In this document: positions 2,981 to 29,041 of the stretch, in pieces | Layout of the letters: the number at the start of each line of letters is the position of its first letter | Numbering within the stretch: position 1 is the stretch's first letter | Origin: Halonotius pteroides | GTDB lineage: Archaea > Halobacteriota > Halobacteria > Halobacteriales > Haloferacaceae | Reading direction: 5' to 3' | Assembly (NCBI RefSeq): GCF_003605635.1 | Contig: NZ_QMDW01000009.1 | Span: 1-64,000, forward strand | DNA length: 64,000 nucleotides | Position numbers and translations under genes: made by a program | Notes under the pieces: model-generated | Seen by the model: the letters and a program-made list of their open reading frames with translations, nothing else | The model's database searches: none | What the model was told of the DNA's origin: nothing

Positions 2981-3363
2981 TATGTCTCCTCCCGCATCTG
3001 CGTCCAGAGCTCTTCGAGCCGGCGATCGGCGGTCTGCTCGTCGGCCGGTCGCTCAGCGGTGACAACCAGCTGTTCATCGTCGTCGACAGACACGGTAATC
3101 TGATCAAAGCCACGGGCATACAACGTCGCATGCTGGCCACTGCGACGGATCTCCGTCGATTCTATCAACAGGTTAGCGTCGGTCAGGTGATCGAGCTTGC
3201 GGTACATCGTCGACAGGGGAATATCACACGCATCCGAGAGTTCGTTTGCCGTCATTGGTTCTGAGAGTTCGGTGATAATCGCTCTGGTAGGTTCGTCGCC
3301 GAGTGCGTTGAGAACCTCCTCGGTGGTAGGAGCATCGTCCCGTTGTGACGGGTCACGCACCAT
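2980..3363 (-). CDS. Winged helix-turn-helix transcriptional regulator
   Basis: A 127-residue ArsR-like winged-helix protein. The DNA-binding region is residues 15-75: 'VLNALGDEPTRAIITELSE', then 'MTANELSDACDIPLSTMYRK' as the helix-turn-helix and 'LDHLTDANLLIES' toward the wing. The remaining C-terminal half is an acidic beta-rich segment. The ATG chosen here removes a 22-residue extension and sits about 28 bases downstream of a TATA-like box on this strand (around 3388-3395), consistent with a leaderless mRNA. It heads the two-gene unit with the small membrane protein. The ligand is unknown. Confidence 0.82.
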   Translation of the reverse strand: MVRDPSQRDDAPTTEEVLNALGDEPTRAIITELSEPMTANELSDACDIPLSTMYRKLDHLTDANLLIESTEIRRSGQHATLYARGFDQITVSVDDDEQLVVTAERPADEQTADRRLEELWTQMREET

Positions 3364-3566
3364 TATGTGGCTGTTGTGACGAAGCGTGGATAAACGTACT
3401 CGTTCGACGACCGGTAGTATGATCCCCACGGTTGGAGACGCTGATCACCAGACGGCTCGTTGGTGTGTGCCCGCCAAACCACGGAGTTCGCGGCCGCGTT
3501 TCTGTCCCTGAAACCCGCGTGGGCGATTTATGTACTCCCACCCAGTTGGTTCCACTAGCATCCTCT

Positions 3567-3629
3567 ATGGATCATCCGCTCCACCACCCCGACTGTATTG
3601 ACCGCGTTCGCCGAGGAGGTGCCAGCTGA
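3567..3629 (+). CDS. 20-codon leader ORF with His/Cys cluster
   Basis: A very short open frame, MDHPLHHPDCIDRVRRGGAS, whose TGA stop shares its last base with the ATG of the next regulator gene (TGATG). A TATA-like box (tttatgta, 3527-3534) would place transcription start about 11 bases before this ATG, so it would be the first thing translated. Its 3' end contains GGAGGTG (3616-3622), a strong Shine-Dalgarno for the regulator gene. The H-x2-H-H-x2-C arrangement could bind metal. That it is translated is inference. Confidence 0.35.
   Translation: MDHPLHHPDCIDRVRRGGAS
3616..3622 (+). promoter_or_regulatory. Strong Shine-Dalgarno before the 112-aa HTH gene
   Basis: GGAGGTG lies six bases before the ATG at 3629, inside the preceding short ORF. 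Most genes here look leaderless and lack such a site, so it supports internal or re-initiated translation of the regulator. Confidence 0.6.
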
Positions 3630-3967
3630 TGCACACCCTCTCGACACGCCCTGAGCCAACCCCAGCCCAAACCGACGAGACCCGTGTCGTCGAGTTCGAT
3701 GATGACGCCTTCGGCGACGTGCTGGCAGCGATTCATTCCGAAACCGCCCGTGAGATCCTCCTGAGTGTCCGCGACGAGCCACTGACAGCCTCCGAGATCG
3801 CCGACCGCGTCGACACCTCGGTACAGAATGCGAGCTACCACCTCCGAAAGCTTGTCGACGCTGAGCTTGTCCGTGTCTGTGACAACGTCTACTCAGAAAA
3901 GGGGTGTGAGATGAAATGCTACCGCGCCGTCGACACGGCGTTGCTGCTCACCACTGAGTCCCGATGA
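3629..3967 (+). CDS. ArsR-type winged helix regulator
   Basis: A 112-residue HTH protein. The winged-helix core spans residues 30-90: 'VLAAIHSETAREILLSVRDE', 'LTASEIADRVDTSVQNASYH' as the recognition segment, 'LRKLVDAELVRV' and a short wing. Three C-terminal cysteines (VCDNVYSEKGCEMKCY, about residues 86-100) sit next to the wing and might respond to metal or redox, which is inference. A TGATG junction couples it to the leader ORF upstream. Its own TGA overlaps the ATG of the PadR-like gene by four bases (ATGA), so both regulators are co-translated. Confidence 0.82.
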   Translation: MHTLSTRPEPTPAQTDETRVVEFDDDAFGDVLAAIHSETAREILLSVRDEPLTASEIADRVDTSVQNASYHLRKLVDAELVRVCDNVYSEKGCEMKCYRAVDTALLLTTESR

Positions 3968-5464: not shown

Positions 5465-6472
5465 ATGGTAGAGCAGACGCGCTTCTCTCGACGAGCGTAT
5501 GTTGCCGGCGTTGGATCAGCAGCTACCCTTGGTGTTGCTGGCTGCCTTGGCGGCGGCGATGATAGCGTAACAGTCGCACATATGCCGATTTTCCCGGATC
5601 TCCAGTACTATGTTATGGAGTCAGAGGACTATCTCGCGGAGATCGATGCCACAATCGACAACCAAGAGTTCGGCAATGGCCCCGATATCGTCCAGGCCAT
5701 GGGCGGCGGCGAGGTCGACATCGCGATGTTTGGGGTTGTTCCGGCGATGATCACCATCGACCGCGGCATCGGCGCGCAGGTGACAGCCGCCAACATCAAA
5801 GAGCCGATGGCGATCCTGACACACGACGAGTTCGCACCACTGTGGGACGAACACGGCAGCGATGCTTTCGACATCTGGGCCGACGAGAACGGCGAGCAGT
5901 TCACGTTCGGCACCTTCCCGCAGGGTTCAGTGCCGGATGTGTTGCTCCGCTACTGGCTCCAACAGGAGGGTGTTGATCCGGAAACCGACGTGACGATCAC
6001 AGGGATCAGCGGAGCCAACGCCGTGTTTCAGGCGATCGCCAACGGCGAGATCGATGGCGCGTCGATCATGGAGCCGGTTCCCTCCCGGGTCGCTGAGGAG
6101 GGGCTCTCCTATGAGACGTTCCGCACCTCGGCGGAGATCATGCCCGGCCAGCCGGCCGCGGTGACGCTGATGACCGATTCGGTTCGGGAGTCACCTGTTG
6201 CCACACAGTTTCTCAACCAACACGTTCGGGCGACGACGTTTATCAACGAAAACCCATCGGCGACAGCCGAGATCGTAGAATCCGGTATCGGGATGCCGGC
6301 CGAACAGGCCCAACAGGCGCTTGATGGGCCGTTGGCAAACTTCGTCACCGATCCCCGCGAGATCGAGGCTGGCACCGAAATCTTCGCCGAGTTTGCCGCC
6401 GACAACGGCCAAACAGACGAACAGCTCACACGCGATCAGATCTTCGACTACAGCATCTACGAGACCCTGTAA
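5465..6472 (+). CDS. ABC transporter substrate-binding lipoprotein, SsuA/NMT1-like
   Basis: A 335-residue solute-binding protein for a nitrate/sulfonate/taurine-type importer. The N-terminus has a twin-arginine motif (FSRRAYVAG, residues 6-14), a hydrophobic stretch and the lipobox GVAGC, so it is a Tat-exported lipoprotein anchored at the outer membrane face. The body shows the family's PBP-II pattern: 'HMPIFPDLQYYVMES', 'VQAMGGGEVDIAMFGV', 'TFPQGSVPDVLLRYWLQQEG' and 'GASIMEPVPSR'. The ATG used is 27 bases after a TATA-like box. The permease start overlaps its stop by one base (TAATG). The substrate is not certain: sulfonate, nitrate and pyrimidine precursors all remain possible. Confidence 0.88.
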   Translation: MVEQTRFSRRAYVAGVGSAATLGVAGCLGGGDDSVTVAHMPIFPDLQYYVMESEDYLAEIDATIDNQEFGNGPDIVQAMGGGEVDIAMFGVVPAMITIDRGIGAQVTAANIKEPMAILTHDEFAPLWDEHGSDAFDIWADENGEQFTFGTFPQGSVPDVLLRYWLQQEGVDPETDVTITGISGANAVFQAIANGEIDGASIMEPVPSRVAEEGLSYETFRTSAEIMPGQPAAVTLMTDSVRESPVATQFLNQHVRATTFINENPSATAEIVESGIGMPAEQAQQALDGPLANFVTDPREIEAGTEIFAEFAADNGQTDEQLTRDQIFDYSIYETL

Positions 6473-7278
6473 TGGCTACCGACGTTCAACAGGAGCCCGC
6501 GCCGACAACGAACGACGGCGAACTCCCAGTGGTCGGTATCGACCGCCGCCGGGCCGGCTTGGGAACCGTCGGCCTCGCGGGATTCCTCGGTCTGTGGTGG
6601 CTTGCAGCGCTATTCCAACCAGCCTACGTGTTGCCATCGCCAGCGGTTGTTGCCGAGGCGGCGGTCGCCGAATTCGCCAGCGGTGAGGTGTTTGTCGCTC
6701 TCGGCCAGAGCATCCAACACTGGATCCCCGGAACGATTATCGGCACCACGCTCGGCGTTGCCGCCGGGGTTGCACTCGGCTGGAGCTCACTGCTTGATGA
6801 TATCTCCTCACCGGTTGTTCGGACACTCCGGCCGGTGCCGCCGCTGGCGTTGATCGGGTTTGCGATCGCCTGGTTCGGGATCAACCACGCCGGGGCTGCC
6901 TTTATTATCGCTGTCGGCGCGTTTTGGATCAACTTCTATGCCAGCTACGGTGGCGTCGAGGGCGTCTCCGATGACCTCCTTGATGTGGCTCGGAGTCTCG
7001 GTGTCGACGGCGATCTCGCACTCATCAAAACGGTCGTGATTCCGGCGGCGTCCCCGGAGATCATGACCGGGATCCGAACGGGGATCGGCCGGTGTTGGAT
7101 GCTCGTCGTCGCCGCCGAGATCTTCGGCGTCCCCGGAATCGGGCGGCGAATCCTGCGGGCCTCAAACAATCTGCAGGTTGATGTTGTCATCACCTACATC
7201 CTCGTGTTGAGCATAATGTTCCTCCTTGTCGATATGGCCTACCGTGCCGTTCAAAAACGGGTGTTAGTATGGCGATGA
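6472..7278 (+). CDS. ABC transporter permease, SsuC/TauC-like
   Basis: A 268-residue BPD-type permease with about six membrane helices from residue 25 to the end. The cytoplasmic EAA loop that contacts the ATPase is seen as 'DDLLDVARSLGVDGDLALIK' followed by 'VVIPAASPEIMTGIRTG'. The first 20 residues are polar. It overlaps the binding-protein gene by one base and the ATPase gene by ten, so the three form one translationally coupled importer operon. Confidence 0.9.
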   Translation: MATDVQQEPAPTTNDGELPVVGIDRRRAGLGTVGLAGFLGLWWLAALFQPAYVLPSPAVVAEAAVAEFASGEVFVALGQSIQHWIPGTIIGTTLGVAAGVALGWSSLLDDISSPVVRTLRPVPPLALIGFAIAWFGINHAGAAFIIAVGAFWINFYASYGGVEGVSDDLLDVARSLGVDGDLALIKTVVIPAASPEIMTGIRTGIGRCWMLVVAAEIFGVPGIGRRILRASNNLQVDVVITYILVLSIMFLLVDMAYRAVQKRVLVWR

Positions 7279-8036
7279 CAGAGAGCGGCGGTTCGTCGGT
7301 GCAGGTCAGCGGCGTCAGCAAACGGTATGCGAGCGAACAGGGATCCGTCCGCGCGTTAGCCGATGTCACCTTTGGTGTCGACCCGGGTGAATTCGTGTGC
7401 ATTGTCGGCCCCTCCGGGTGCGGAAAAACAACGCTGTTTCGCATTCTGGCCGGCCTCGAACCGGCGACCCGCGGGCAGGTCACGCTCAATGACTCGGTGG
7501 TCACCGAGCCGACCCCAAACATGGGCATTGTCTTTCAGGAGTACCACCTCTTCCCGTGGCGAACTGTCCGGGGAAACATCGCCTTTGGGTTAGAGAAGGC
7601 TGTCGGCCTCGACGGCACCGATCGTGACCAACGCGTCCAACAGCTGATCGATCTTGTTGGCCTTGCAGGCTTCGAGGATAGCTACCCGAAATCGCTTTCC
7701 GGCGGGATGAAACAGCGCGTCGCGCTGGCGCGAGCGTTGGCGATCGATCCAGCCCTGCTTCTTATGGACGAGCCGTTTGGTGCGGTTGATGCCCAAACCA
7801 GAGAGCGCTTGCAGGATGAACTCCTCGACATCTGGCAGGAAACCGGGAAGACGATCCTGTTTGTCACACACGATGTCGAGGAGGCGGTCACGCTTGCTGA
7901 TCGCGTTGTCGTGATGGGGCGTGATCCGGGGCAGCTTCGTGAGATCGTCCCCATTGATATCGATCGCCCGCGATCGCGCACGGATGCGGCGTTTGGCACC
8001 TCTGCTGAGCGGGTACGGTCGCTCATCGAGAACTAA
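7269..8036 (+). CDS. ABC transporter ATP-binding protein, SsuB/TauB-like
   Basis: A 255-residue ABC ATPase with all motifs intact: Walker A GPSGCGKTT near residue 47, Q-loop 'GIVFQEYHLFPWRTV', signature LSGGMKQR, Walker B 'LLLMDEPFGAVD', and the H-loop in 'LFVTHDVEEAV'. The HLFPWRTV form is typical of nitrate/sulfonate/taurine importers. It energises the permease encoded just upstream. It ends eight bases before the stop codon of the convergent DUF63 gene, so the transcript must terminate inside or very near that gene. Confidence 0.93.
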   Translation: MAMTESGGSSVQVSGVSKRYASEQGSVRALADVTFGVDPGEFVCIVGPSGCGKTTLFRILAGLEPATRGQVTLNDSVVTEPTPNMGIVFQEYHLFPWRTVRGNIAFGLEKAVGLDGTDRDQRVQQLIDLVGLAGFEDSYPKSLSGGMKQRVALARALAIDPALLLMDEPFGAVDAQTRERLQDELLDIWQETGKTILFVTHDVEEAVTLADRVVVMGRDPGQLREIVPIDIDRPRSRTDAAFGTSAERVRSLIEN

Positions 8037-25520: not shown

Positions 25521-25647
25521 TTGTGCTTGGGGTAGAGAAAGTTAGCTTGTATCCGGATCACACTGACTACCGGAACCTAACGGTGTCCCGTTGCCGATAT
25601 CGCAGCACAGACAGCACGAACAAGTGTCTGGCACTCAGAGCGGTCAG

Positions 25648-25662
25648 AAATTAATAGATATA
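25648..25662 (+). promoter_or_regulatory. TATA box of the TFS-like gene
   Basis: AT-rich element aaattaatagatata, centred about 34 bases before the ATG. It predicts a leader of only several nucleotides and supports the ATG at 25690. Confidence 0.5.
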
Positions 25663-25689
25663 TCCGACACCCATACATGCACAACCTAT

Positions 25690-26007
25690 ATGAAATTCTG
25701 TGATGAGTGTGGGTCGCTGATGCACACGGAAGGTGACACCTGGGTGTGTCGCTCCTGTGCAAACGAGGAGTCGCGGGACGCCGAGGCAGAAGCGGCGATG
25801 ACGACCCGAGATGGACAGCAGAACGACGAAGCCCCCGCCGTCGCCGACGCGACCCAAGAGGCCAGTGAGACGGTTCAGGAGTCCTGTCCGGCCGAGGACT
25901 GCGACAGTGATCGGGCCACCTCCGAGATGATGCCGAAACCGGGCGGTTCCTACGAGGTTCGGCTGTTCACCTGCGTCGAGTGCGGTCACAAGTGGCGCGC
26001 GTCCTGA
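25690..26007 (+). CDS. TFS/TFIIS-like RNA polymerase factor lacking the acidic hairpin
   Basis: A 105-residue two-zinc-ribbon protein of the TFS/RPB9/TFIIS group. The N-ribbon uses C4, C7, C20 and C23 (MKFCDECGS..WVCRSC); the C-ribbon uses C66, C71, C95 and C98, ending CVECGHKWRAS as in TFS. In active TFS the C-ribbon hairpin carries an RSADEP-type Asp-Glu pair that drives RNA cleavage; here that stretch is SEMMPKPGGSYE, with no DE. So it probably binds RNA polymerase without stimulating cleavage. The linker (24-64) is acidic and disordered. A TATA box (25648-25662) lies upstream of the ATG. Confidence 0.85.
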   Translation: MKFCDECGSLMHTEGDTWVCRSCANEESRDAEAEAAMTTRDGQQNDEAPAVADATQEASETVQESCPAEDCDSDRATSEMMPKPGGSYEVRLFTCVECGHKWRAS

Positions 26008-26172: not shown

Positions 26173-27495
26173 TCACGGCTCGATCCGGTCGAGAAACCGG
26201 TCAAAGGCCCCGCTCGCGGCGTGCACGTGAGCGTAGGTCCCGAGCGAGTCGTAAGCCATGAGACCGTCGTGGTCGCCGTCGATGCCGTCGCCACGGCGCA
26301 CGTCGAATGCGAAGCGGGCGTCGCTGTCGACGCTGGCCTCCGAGTAGTGGAACTCGTGGCCACGGAGCGTTTCGCCACGGTCGGCCGTGAGCGTCCCTGT
26401 CGTCGCATCGAGTTCGATGTGATCGAGTGCCTGATACCGGTCACACATCGTCACGTCCGCCGGGAGAATCCCAGCCATCGCGTGACCCTCGCCGTCAGTC
26501 GTCGTCAGCGACTGCGCCATCGTCATCAGACCGCCGCACTCGCCGAACACCGACAGACCCTCGCTGGCGCGGTCGGCGAGATCGTCCAGCGTCGGCGACG
26601 ACGCCAACTCTTCGGCGTGGAGTTCTGGATACCCGCCCGGCAGATAGACGCCATCGCAGTCGGGGAGTGGATCGCCAGCGACCGGCGAGAACGTCCTGAC
26701 GGTTGCCCGCTCGCGGAGGCGTTCGACCGTCGCGGGATACCGGAAACAGAAGGCCGCGTCGCTGGCGACGGCGACAGTTGCGCTCGTCGGCTCGGCTGCG
26801 GGCGAGCCGGATGCGTCCATTTCGGCGTCGCTGCCTCTGGGTTCGCGCGCAACCTCGACCAGCCGTTCGGTTTCGAGGTTTTCGGCCGCCTCGTCGAGTG
26901 CGTCGTACGGGAGGGCGGCCTCGTCGCCCATTTCGAGACCGAGATGCCGATCCGGGATTTCGAGGTCGCTAGACGGTTGAATCCGCCCGAAATATGCCAT
27001 CTCGTCCGGCAGCGCGTCCCGAATCCCCTCGGCGTGGCGGCCGCCGTGGGCGCGCTGTGCGACGACGCCCGCCACGTCGATCTCGCGGTCGATGGTCGCC
27101 GCATACTCTCGAAAGCCGTAGGCCGTGGCGGCGACGCTCTCCATGCCGGCCTTGGCGTCGACGACGAGCACGACCGGCAGATCGAGGGCTTCGGCGACCA
27201 TCGCAGTGCTTGAGCCATCGCCGTCGTAGAGGCCCATCACCCCCTCGACGACGCAGATATCGCCCTCGCCGCGGGCGTAGTTGCGAGTAAGGCCGGCGTC
27301 GCCTTCGAGCCACAGGTCGAGCGTACGGGAGGGCCGGCCCGCAATCGCCTCGTGGTGGCTCGGATCGATGAAATCGGGGCCGGCTTTGGCTGGCTGGACG
27401 GAGTAGCCCGCGCCGTCGAGTGCGCGAATGATGGCGAGCGTGGCGACCGTCTTGCCGACGCCGGAGCTGACGCCGCCGAGGACGAAGCCGTTCAT
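26173..27495 (-). CDS. cbiA: Cobyrinic acid a,c-diamide synthase
   Basis: A 440-residue CbiA/CobB, which amidates the a and c side chains using glutamine and ATP. The N-terminal dethiobiotin-synthetase-like domain has the P-loop 'VLGGVSSGVGKTVATL' (residues 5-20) and 'DFIDPSHHEAIAGRPSRTLD'. The C-terminal glutaminase domain has the nucleophile in 'VFGECGGLMTMAQSL' and 'LRGHEFHYSEASV'. The ATG at the P-loop domain start is preferred over one 20 codons upstream. An 87-base gap separates it from vapC, so it may have its own promoter; its 3' end faces the TFS-like gene. Confidence 0.94.
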   Translation of the reverse strand: MNGFVLGGVSSGVGKTVATLAIIRALDGAGYSVQPAKAGPDFIDPSHHEAIAGRPSRTLDLWLEGDAGLTRNYARGEGDICVVEGVMGLYDGDGSSTAMVAEALDLPVVLVVDAKAGMESVAATAYGFREYAATIDREIDVAGVVAQRAHGGRHAEGIRDALPDEMAYFGRIQPSSDLEIPDRHLGLEMGDEAALPYDALDEAAENLETERLVEVAREPRGSDAEMDASGSPAAEPTSATVAVASDAAFCFRYPATVERLRERATVRTFSPVAGDPLPDCDGVYLPGGYPELHAEELASSPTLDDLADRASEGLSVFGECGGLMTMAQSLTTTDGEGHAMAGILPADVTMCDRYQALDHIELDATTGTLTADRGETLRGHEFHYSEASVDSDARFAFDVRRGDGIDGDHDGLMAYDSLGTYAHVHAASGAFDRFLDRIEP

Positions 27496-27582
27496 GCTGG
27501 TCTCTGGCTGGCTGACTGTGAGTGATACATTGTTGCGGTATACTGTGGTTGCCACCGAGTCATCAAAACCTGTTCGAAGCTC

Positions 27583-27987
27583 TCAGGAGTCCTTTCGGTA
27601 GGCATCGATATCGACGACGCGCCGGGTCTCGGGATGCGTGCAATCGCTGTCACTGGAGACGAGCGTCGCGTCCAGTTCGTCGGCGACTGCCACGACGAGC
27701 GCGTCAATCGCAGTCAGGTTTGGGCCTTCCGGGCCGATCTCGTCGGCGATCTCCGCCGCCCGGACGGCCGTCGATGCGTTTGTCTCGACGACATCGACCC
27801 ACGAGAGTTCGGCGCGTGCGTCCTCGATATCCGTGGGCGCGCTGCTGTGAACGGTGCCGAGCAGGTATTCGGTATAGATCGGTGCCGGAGCGACGAACTG
27901 TTCCTCGGCGTGATCAAGCAGGTACTCTGCGGCTGCCTCGACACCGTTGCCGTAATCGATCAGAAACGATGCATCGAGAACTCTCAT
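27583..27987 (-). CDS. vapC: PIN-domain ribonuclease toxin (VapC-like)
   Basis: A 134-residue PIN-domain protein. The acidic catalytic quartet is visible: Asp5 (LDASFLID), Glu40 (YTEYL), Asp95 (TAIDALVVA) and Asp113 (SSDSD). VapC toxins cleave tRNA or rRNA. Its ATG overlaps the vapB-like stop by four bases, the normal antitoxin-then-toxin order. The pair sits between cbiE and cbiA in the cobalamin region, on the same strand. All catalytic positions are intact, so it is likely functional. Confidence 0.9.
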   Translation of the reverse strand: MRVLDASFLIDYGNGVEAAAEYLLDHAEEQFVAPAPIYTEYLLGTVHSSAPTDIEDARAELSWVDVVETNASTAVRAAEIADEIGPEGPNLTAIDALVVAVADELDATLVSSDSDCTHPETRRVVDIDAYRKDS

Positions 27988-28235
27988 TCGTCGGTTCGGG
28001 CCTCTGTCATCGCCGATACGCGGGAGTCAGACTCTTGGTTTCCTCGCTCGTGAACCGCACGCATCGCCTCGGCACGATCCGTGCCGCTGAACGCCCCGAA
28101 GCCGGCGAGCAGGTCGCGGTCGTCGTCCAATAGCCGTTCGAGCACGTCGTTGAACGATTCGCCCTCGTGCCGCCGCTGTTCGAGTTCGCGTTTGACTGAC
28201 TCGCTAACACGAATCTGTTTGTTGGCTGTACCCAT
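27984..28235 (-). CDS. vapB: VapB-like antitoxin (haloarchaeal DUF7557-like)
   Basis: An 83-residue antitoxin. The N-terminal part 'KQIRVSESVKRELEQRRHEG' followed by 'ESFNDVLERLLDDD' is a ribbon-helix-helix-like DNA-binding region. The C-terminal part 'LLAGFGAFSGTDRAEAMRAV' is the toxin-binding segment commonly seen in haloarchaeal antitoxins paired with PIN toxins. It starts 41 bases after the cbiE stop and just below a perfect inverted repeat, as expected for autoregulation. Confidence 0.88.
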   Translation of the reverse strand: MGTANKQIRVSESVKRELEQRRHEGESFNDVLERLLDDDRDLLAGFGAFSGTDRAEAMRAVHERGNQESDSRVSAMTEARTDE

Positions 28236-28239
28236 TGTA

Positions 28240-28259
28240 TGTCAACGTAGTCGTTGACA
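28240..28259. promoter_or_regulatory. Perfect inverted repeat operator upstream of vapB
   Basis: TGTCAACG-tagt-CGTTGACA: eight-base perfect arms with a four-base spacer, ending five bases before the vapB ATG. An AT-rich box on the minus strand (gattaattc, 28261-28269) lies immediately upstream, so the repeat spans the predicted transcription start. This is the position expected for repression by the VapB or VapBC complex. Confidence 0.65.
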
Positions 28260-28276
28260 CGAATTAATCGTTTGGC

Positions 28277-29041
28277 TCACTCGACGTCTCGACGGACTGC
28301 CAGCACCGACAGATCCGAAAACGGCGTTGAGTCGGCTCCAGACCCGCCGGCATGGTCGGCAAGGTCGCCCAGCGAACGTCGACTGATCGACTCGTCGTCG
28401 TGAGTGAGCCTTTCGAGTACGAGCGCGTCCAGCGCGGAATCAGCACCTGCGTTGAGCAGGTTGGCCGCGATATCGCCGGGCATCCAGTCGAACGGCCGCG
28501 GCAACACGAGCAGGTGTCTGTCGCCGACGGCGGCTGTCAGCCGCGCGACATCGTCGCTGATGTCGCCACTCTTGTGCAGCGTGACGAACTCGGTGTCCTC
28601 CATCGGCGTGCGGGCGCGACTCGCCGCGATCTGGAGCGACGAGATACCGGGAATCACGCGAACCGGCCGGTCGACCACGTCCTGCACCTTGCCGACGAAC
28701 TGGTAGCCGGAGTGGTTTGGATCGCCCATCAGCACCGCCGTCCCGCGCTCGCCGCTGGCAACGCGGTCGGCGAACGTCGTCAGGGCCTCCCGTTCGTCCT
28801 TGTAACCGCAGGTCAACAGGTCGGCGTCGGTTTCATGGGTGATGAAGTCGACGACGGTCTCGAAGCCGACGACGACATCAGCGTCTTCGATAGCCTGCCG
28901 CCCCCGCGGCGTGAGATAGTCGAGATTGCCGGGGCCGATACCGACCGCGTGAACGGGGGCAGCGTCAGCATCGAGCGTTTCGGGTGCAGCCGCTGCAACG
29001 GTCGCCGGATCGGGGCCGGAATCGAGGTCGTACCCGCTCAT
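28277..29041 (-). CDS. cbiE: Cobalt-precorrin-7 C5-methyltransferase
   Basis: A 254-residue CbiE. After a 30-residue acidic/alanine tail the SAM motif 'VGIGPGNLDYLTPRGRQAI' appears, followed by 'DVVVGFETVVDFIT', 'VLMGDPNHSGYQFVGKVQD' and 'VIPGISSLQIAASRA'. It works with CbiT (the two are fused in CobL of aerobic organisms); here cbiT is encoded about 3 kb downstream. Its ATG overlaps the cbiC stop by four bases. It is the last gene before the toxin-antitoxin pair. Confidence 0.93.
   Translation of the reverse strand: MSGYDLDSGPDPATVAAAAPETLDADAAPVHAVGIGPGNLDYLTPRGRQAIEDADVVVGFETVVDFITHETDADLLTCGYKDEREALTTFADRVASGERGTAVLMGDPNHSGYQFVGKVQDVVDRPVRVIPGISSLQIAASRARTPMEDTEFVTLHKSGDISDDVARLTAAVGDRHLLVLPRPFDWMPGDIAANLLNAGADSALDALVLERLTHDDESISRRSLGDLADHAGGSGADSTPFSDLSVLAVRRDVE

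Follow-up and report, generated by a model that had tools for sequence, protein, structure and literature searches.

The window analysed here (i.e., the whole stretch of 64,000 nucleotides of Halonotius pteroides DNA) carries a vapBC toxin–antitoxin pair within a cobalamin cluster whose minus-strand gene order is cobN, cbiC, cbiE, vapB, vapC, cbiA, cbiT, cbiL and further cob genes. We consider it very probable that this pair is a self-contained cassette that entered the cobalamin operon once, that regulates itself as predicted from its upstream region, and whose location is incidental to the B12 pathway. The features involved are, in the direction of transcription:

28277..29041, minus strand: cbiE, cobalt-precorrin-7 C5-methyltransferase, upstream flank (NCBIfam NF004457, 406 bits, cut-off 302)
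27496..28276, minus strand: inserted cassette, full extent, absent from the Halonotius genomes G061 and G023
28260..28275, minus strand: promoter-like BRE/TATA element CCAAAC-gATTAATtcg (clade consensus)
28241..28258, minus strand: putative two-box operator GTCAAC-N6-GTTGAC, boxes 12 bp apart, core of a 20-nt dyad (conservation)
27984..28235, minus strand: vapB, 83 aa VAPB_antitox-family antitoxin (Pfam VAPB_antitox), amino terminus MGTANKQIRVS
27583..27987, minus strand: vapC, 134 aa PIN-domain toxin (Pfam PIN)
26173..27495, minus strand: cbiA, cobyrinic acid a,c-diamide synthase, downstream flank (NCBIfam NF010471, 800 bits, cut-off 693)

A complete VapBC module in a biosynthetic operon

The initial annotation of this DNA had recognized a complete PIN toxin with its antitoxin, and both proteins indeed scored above the cut-offs of their Pfam families (VapC against PIN PF01850: 40.5 bits, cut-off 23.6, E 4.9e-10; VapB against VAPB_antitox PF02697: 49.5 bits, cut-off 27.9, E 7.4e-13). 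The vapB gene lies directly upstream of vapC and is joined to it by a 4-nt ATGA overlap, both genes forming one operon. In an alignment of eight homologues, the acidic residues D5, E40, D95 and D113 of VapC were invariant, and we take these to be the four conserved acidic PIN residues of VapCs. The AlphaFold model of VapC was confident (pLDDT of 90), and its top PDB match among solved VapCs was VapC of VapBC15 (4chg_A, Foldseek E 1.4e-6). Four conserved acidic residues have been described as a feature of VapCs (PMC6118392).

Other searches returned less. VapC scored 36 bits against the NCBIfam model TA_toxin_VapC (NF047959), below a cut-off of 80 that is the equivalog cut-off for one subgroup and does not define the whole VapC family, and the match of VapB to the NCBIfam VapB model was also under its cut-off. 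PADLOC gave no match for the pair, and phmmer against PDB sequences found no relative of VapB and a single, chance-level match for VapC. The AlphaFold model of VapB was poor (pLDDT of 58.5), with helices at residues 12–22 and 28–37 and no beta strand called. Ribbon-helix-helix antitoxins consist of an N-terminal beta strand and two helices that make up a dimer; for this protein, such a fold is a candidate at best.

When H. pteroides (genome G000) was compared with Halonotius roseus, dN/dS amounted to 0.147 for VapB, 0.191 for VapC and 0.095 for cbiA, the latter value indicating purifying selection; VapB and VapC are likewise under selection, and all three are kept functional. In its gene order, 4-nt overlap, Pfam families, PIN acidic residues and VapC fold, as well as in having an operator (here assigned by conservation) next to the antitoxin start, the pair is like VapBC type II systems, and judging from these sequence features it is a complete, ordinary module of that type in an unusual place. 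It is unlike typical VapBC in that it sits inside a biosynthetic operon, and in belonging to a haloarchaeal subclade whose two-box GTNNAC operator, with a pitch of 12 bp, follows a BRE/TATA-like element. The PIN toxin fold is also shared with FitAB of Neisseria gonorrhoeae, solved on DNA (PDB 2bsq, Foldseek E 4.9e-5), a system known for antitoxin–operator autoregulation. FitAB differs in organism, sequence and operator; for the present VapB, a ribbon-helix-helix fold is a candidate at best.

Cobalamin synthesis clusters have been described for Halonotius, including H. roseus F9-27 (PMC6719526), and thus for the same genus and the same gene cluster as in the window. The legend of Figure 5 in that paper has the non-conserved genes of the cluster drawn in white, and a word search of its main text retrieved neither "toxin" nor "VapC". 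In the open-licence literature, from which many journals are absent, we found no paper on a VapBC in a cobalamin cluster and no description of a haloarchaeal VapB operator.

A probable single insertion at a gene overlap

The collection contained five Halonotius genomes, i.e., that of the window (G000), H. roseus F9-27 (G045), G061, G023 and G073. VapBC was present between cbiE and cbiA in G000 and H. roseus. In G061 and G023, the site was empty and the cluster intact, with the TGA of cbiE lying inside the ATGA that starts cbiA. This direct overlap bears out the initial annotation in its claim that the pair interrupts the cbiE–cbiA order, and the check it had proposed, i.e., whether related genomes keep the pair at this locus, had a divided outcome: H. 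roseus keeps it, while G061 and G023 are without it. G073 was left out at this junction, its cbiE being interrupted by a gap in the assembly and by a transposase-like ORF (L074 1-1500).

The cassette, consisting of promoter, operator, vapB and vapC, would have entered the operon at a former ATGA overlap of cbiE with cbiA. The spacer in front of vapB is 41 nt long in the window, and the one between vapC and cbiA 87 nt. In H. roseus, the latter spacer measures only 22 nt, and cbiE continues as far as a TAA that falls within the cassette's TATA-like element.

The VapBC proteins of G000 and H. roseus formed one clade (support of 0.978 and 100), and the nearest VapBC of G061 sits elsewhere, both in the tree and in the genome. 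A tree on four cob genes likewise placed G000 with H. roseus (DNA: 0.999 with FastTree and 89 with IQ-TREE; protein: 0.661). However, a tree that included G073, and was limited to cobN and cbiC, paired G000 with G073 (FastTree 0.999) and left H. roseus outside, which makes the branching order within Halonotius tentative. Going by these trees, a single acquisition in the common ancestor of H. pteroides and H. roseus is the simplest reading. Synonymous divergence between the two was higher for vapBC (0.515) than for cbiE, cbiA and cbiC (0.348; 95% CI for the difference, 0.07–0.27), which could mean that the history was more complicated than one insertion; contributions to the excess could come from a lower GC3 of vapBC, from an older split or from recombination. 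With empty sites available in the same genus, the locus offers a clean before-and-after case for the entry of a toxin–antitoxin cassette into an operon at the overlap of two genes.

Two GTNNAC boxes in front of vapB

A perfect 20-nt dyad, TGTCAACG-tagt-CGTTGACA, occupies positions 28240-28259 and is separated from the vapB start by 4 nt. The initial annotation had located it exactly between a TATA-like box and the antitoxin start, and the coordinates agree, with an ATTAAT box (28263-28268) on one side and the vapB ATG (28235) on the other. This box is part of the CCAAAC-gATTAATtcg element, which presumably serves as BRE/TATA; a similar promoter-like element, CCCAACGACTAAG, precedes vapB of clade members elsewhere. 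Haloarchaeal promoters have BRE/TATA boxes ~27 nt before the starts, and their transcripts are often leaderless. The exact dyad was unique in the window, where four matches were found when up to three mismatches were allowed (versus 0.45 expected from shuffling), and it was also unique in the whole 3.0-Mb genome.

When 148 genomes were searched for exact matches to GTCAACG-N4-CGTTGAC, 17 sites were obtained, two of which (G029:C32 and G030:C3) had no locus and were left out. Among the 15 that were opened, nine were located just before vapB and six in long frames. The pattern read backwards, used as a control, gave a single forward match apiece in 12 genomes. Members of the clade were also found on haloarchaeal plasmids, and nine of 15 plasmid records were used (leaving out H9, which equals L063, and H11-H15, which were partial or weak). 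The exact dyad was rejected as the conserved operator, as among these nine plasmid loci, which had served as a first hold-out, one had it exactly and three with at most two mismatches; a reading as two separate boxes was therefore adopted.

Two GTNNAC boxes were present within 48 nt of the start in 32 of the 34 loci of the VapB subclade to which the dyad belongs, with a spacing of 12 bp in 28 loci, 13 bp in three and 11 bp in one. Shuffled sequences gave 0.13 of 34. L048 was scored as a miss because its assigned start codon is probably too far upstream. The second box read GTTGAC (inverted, as in the window) in 14 loci, GTCAAC (direct) in 15 and otherwise in three. Since the nine plasmid loci had prompted the two-box rule, they do not count as a hold-out for it. 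In a further search, extended to 243 genomes of the order, 29 loci were obtained, 26 of which had the 12-bp pair, and after removal of eight loci with upstream DNA already examined, the pair was present in 19 of the 21 new loci that served as hold-out.

Conservation thus points to two GTNNAC boxes 12 bp apart as the conserved feature, the second being inverted or direct and perfect symmetry being one of two states, and it identifies the dyad as the putative operator of this VapB subclade. The "perfect operator" of the initial annotation accordingly holds up as the putative operator of VapBC, in that the repeat is found again next to related vapB genes whose loci are otherwise unrelated; its perfect symmetry is not conserved.

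In other VapB subclades, two GTNNAC boxes were found in 12 of 28 loci and the 12-bp pair in eight, mostly as GTATAC with MSKSIRV proteins. Upstream of the vapB genes of this MSKSIRV subclade (L025, L023, L028 and similar loci), the arrangement was GTATAC-N6-GTATAC, i.e., with the same 12-bp pitch, and this common pitch suggests a general layout of haloarchaeal VapB operators. That the type of box follows the VapB subclade supports VapB as the predicted reader of the site. From the 63 loci listed, 53 deduplicated pairs were kept; antitoxins for which no VapC was recognised (e.g., in G102, G078 and G069) fell away. No relatives were detected in the viral contigs searched or in phages. One copy, in the MAG QS_9_67_17 (L062 5249-5641), has an in-frame stop in VapC and may be decaying, or the assembly may be wrong.

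The outcome is a testable operator rule for haloarchaeal VapB (two GTNNAC boxes at 12 bp, the second in either orientation, subclade-specific), which corrects the notion of a perfectly symmetrical dyad as the decisive feature, and which would help to find vapB genes and to annotate their starts.

Antitoxins bind DNA as dimers, in the major groove. By analogy with known VapBC systems, VapB or the VapBC complex would bind the two boxes that separate the TATA-like box from the vapB start, and in doing so would block transcription, so that the vapBC operon represses itself. When VapB is degraded, VapC would be set free to cleave RNA and repression would be lifted. Operator binding and autoregulation have been described for VapBC complexes (PMC4803016). 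For the present pair, DNA binding, autorepression and RNase toxicity are predicted.

Location of the cassette and expression of cbiA

The family was surveyed in 148 genomes, of which 73 had cbiE (E ≤1e-30) and 117 had cbiA (E ≤1e-60). Coordinates read by hand placed cbiA directly downstream of cbiE on the same strand in 31 genomes, with gaps of 0–84 nt in 20 and of 1.0–2.2 kb in nine, and with VapBC in two. These two, both Halonotius, are the only ones of the 73 cbiE-bearing genomes to have this VapBC at the cbiE–cbiA junction. Neither VapB nor VapC was found in any of the seven long-gap loci that were opened, and five of these seven contained a same-strand ORF of ~260 aa that by eye was CbiX chelatase-like.

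When 75 neighbourhoods of cbiE (two of them centred on cbiA) were scanned with a home-made VapC profile, only G000, G045, G029 and G060 gave matches. Together with G043:C11:583255, from among the Pfam matches listed, this makes at least five PIN genes near cbiE, two of which belong to the sister Halonotius genomes. Given 492 PIN genes in the 75 genomes, 2.8 would be expected within 10 kb of cbiE (Poisson P for five or more, 0.15). The frequency of PIN genes there is about as expected, and the location therefore needs no special explanation; it looks incidental to the B12 pathway.

The cbiA gene is still under purifying selection and must either be read through or own a promoter. The cassette might have taken over cbiA, which would then be the third gene of the vapBC transcript, with repression and its relief making the synthesis of cobyrinic acid a,c-diamide depend on growth state. 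The insertion disrupted the ATGA overlap by which cbiA was probably coupled to cbiE, and the 22 nt of H. roseus leave little room for a separate cbiA promoter outside vapC. Against this, cbiA may simply be covered by read-through of the cob transcript from upstream, and the 87-nt spacer of the window is AT-rich in places and could accommodate a promoter for cbiA. VapBC may control cbiA, but such a takeover seems unlikely. It seems slightly less likely still in the more elaborate form in which a toxin–antitoxin promoter replaced the cbiE–cbiA translational coupling, leaving cbiA distal in an autorepressed vapBC operon and B12 synthesis following antitoxin turnover, and in which the boxes form a readable VapB code of GTNNAC pairs with a 12-bp pitch and a subclade-specific middle dinucleotide.

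Toxin–antitoxin modules have a general post-segregational role, and the pair sits inside the cobalamin cluster, which the initial annotation took as a sign that it could stabilise the cluster against loss. An addiction module of this kind is very improbable and was rejected as unsupported: G061 and G023, two close relatives without the pair, keep an intact cluster around an empty site, VapBC occupies the junction in only two of the 31 genomes with linked cbiE and cbiA, and the number of PIN genes within 10 kb of cbiE is close to the expectation. The empty sites with intact clusters amount to half of what the initial annotation had named as refuting its reading.

Cobalamin genes also neighbour VapBC in two other genomes. 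In Haloarcula mannanilytica (L068 3072-7694), a VapBC of the same subclade is located between cobO (ATP:corrinoid adenosyltransferase, 3072-3722) and a CbiP-like cobyric acid synthase gene (6216-7694), in the company of a lipoprotein-like ORF. In G029 (L183 8848-9535), a VapBC of a different subclade lies directly upstream of cbiE and is missing from the same place in the sister genome G001. Both placements would fit a preference of VapBC modules for inserting in cobalamin loci. Such a preference is most improbable, however, and was rejected, as the enrichment over the 75 neighbourhoods was not significant and owed two of its five PIN genes to sister Halonotius; cob genes were near clade members in only two of 29 contexts of up to 20 kb (L061 of H. 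roseus and L068), and within ~1.5 kb in none of the 29 loci of the further search. These other cobalamin-locus placements are either chance events, about as many as expected, or leads. A cobalt or cobalamin regulator as reader of the dyad, suggested by its position inside the cob cluster, is scarcely credible and was rejected, as there is no second exact dyad in the genome and the same boxes recur before vapB where there are no cob genes.

The interval between cbiA and cbiT is much shorter in the window than in H. roseus, where it contains a mechanosensitive-channel-like gene (L061 7043-7633) of which no counterpart was listed among the ORFs of the window interval. The latter interval does contain, inside the minus-strand cob cluster, an RPB9/TFS-like zinc-ribbon gene on the plus strand (25624-26007; Pfam RPB9), and H. 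roseus has the same ORF.
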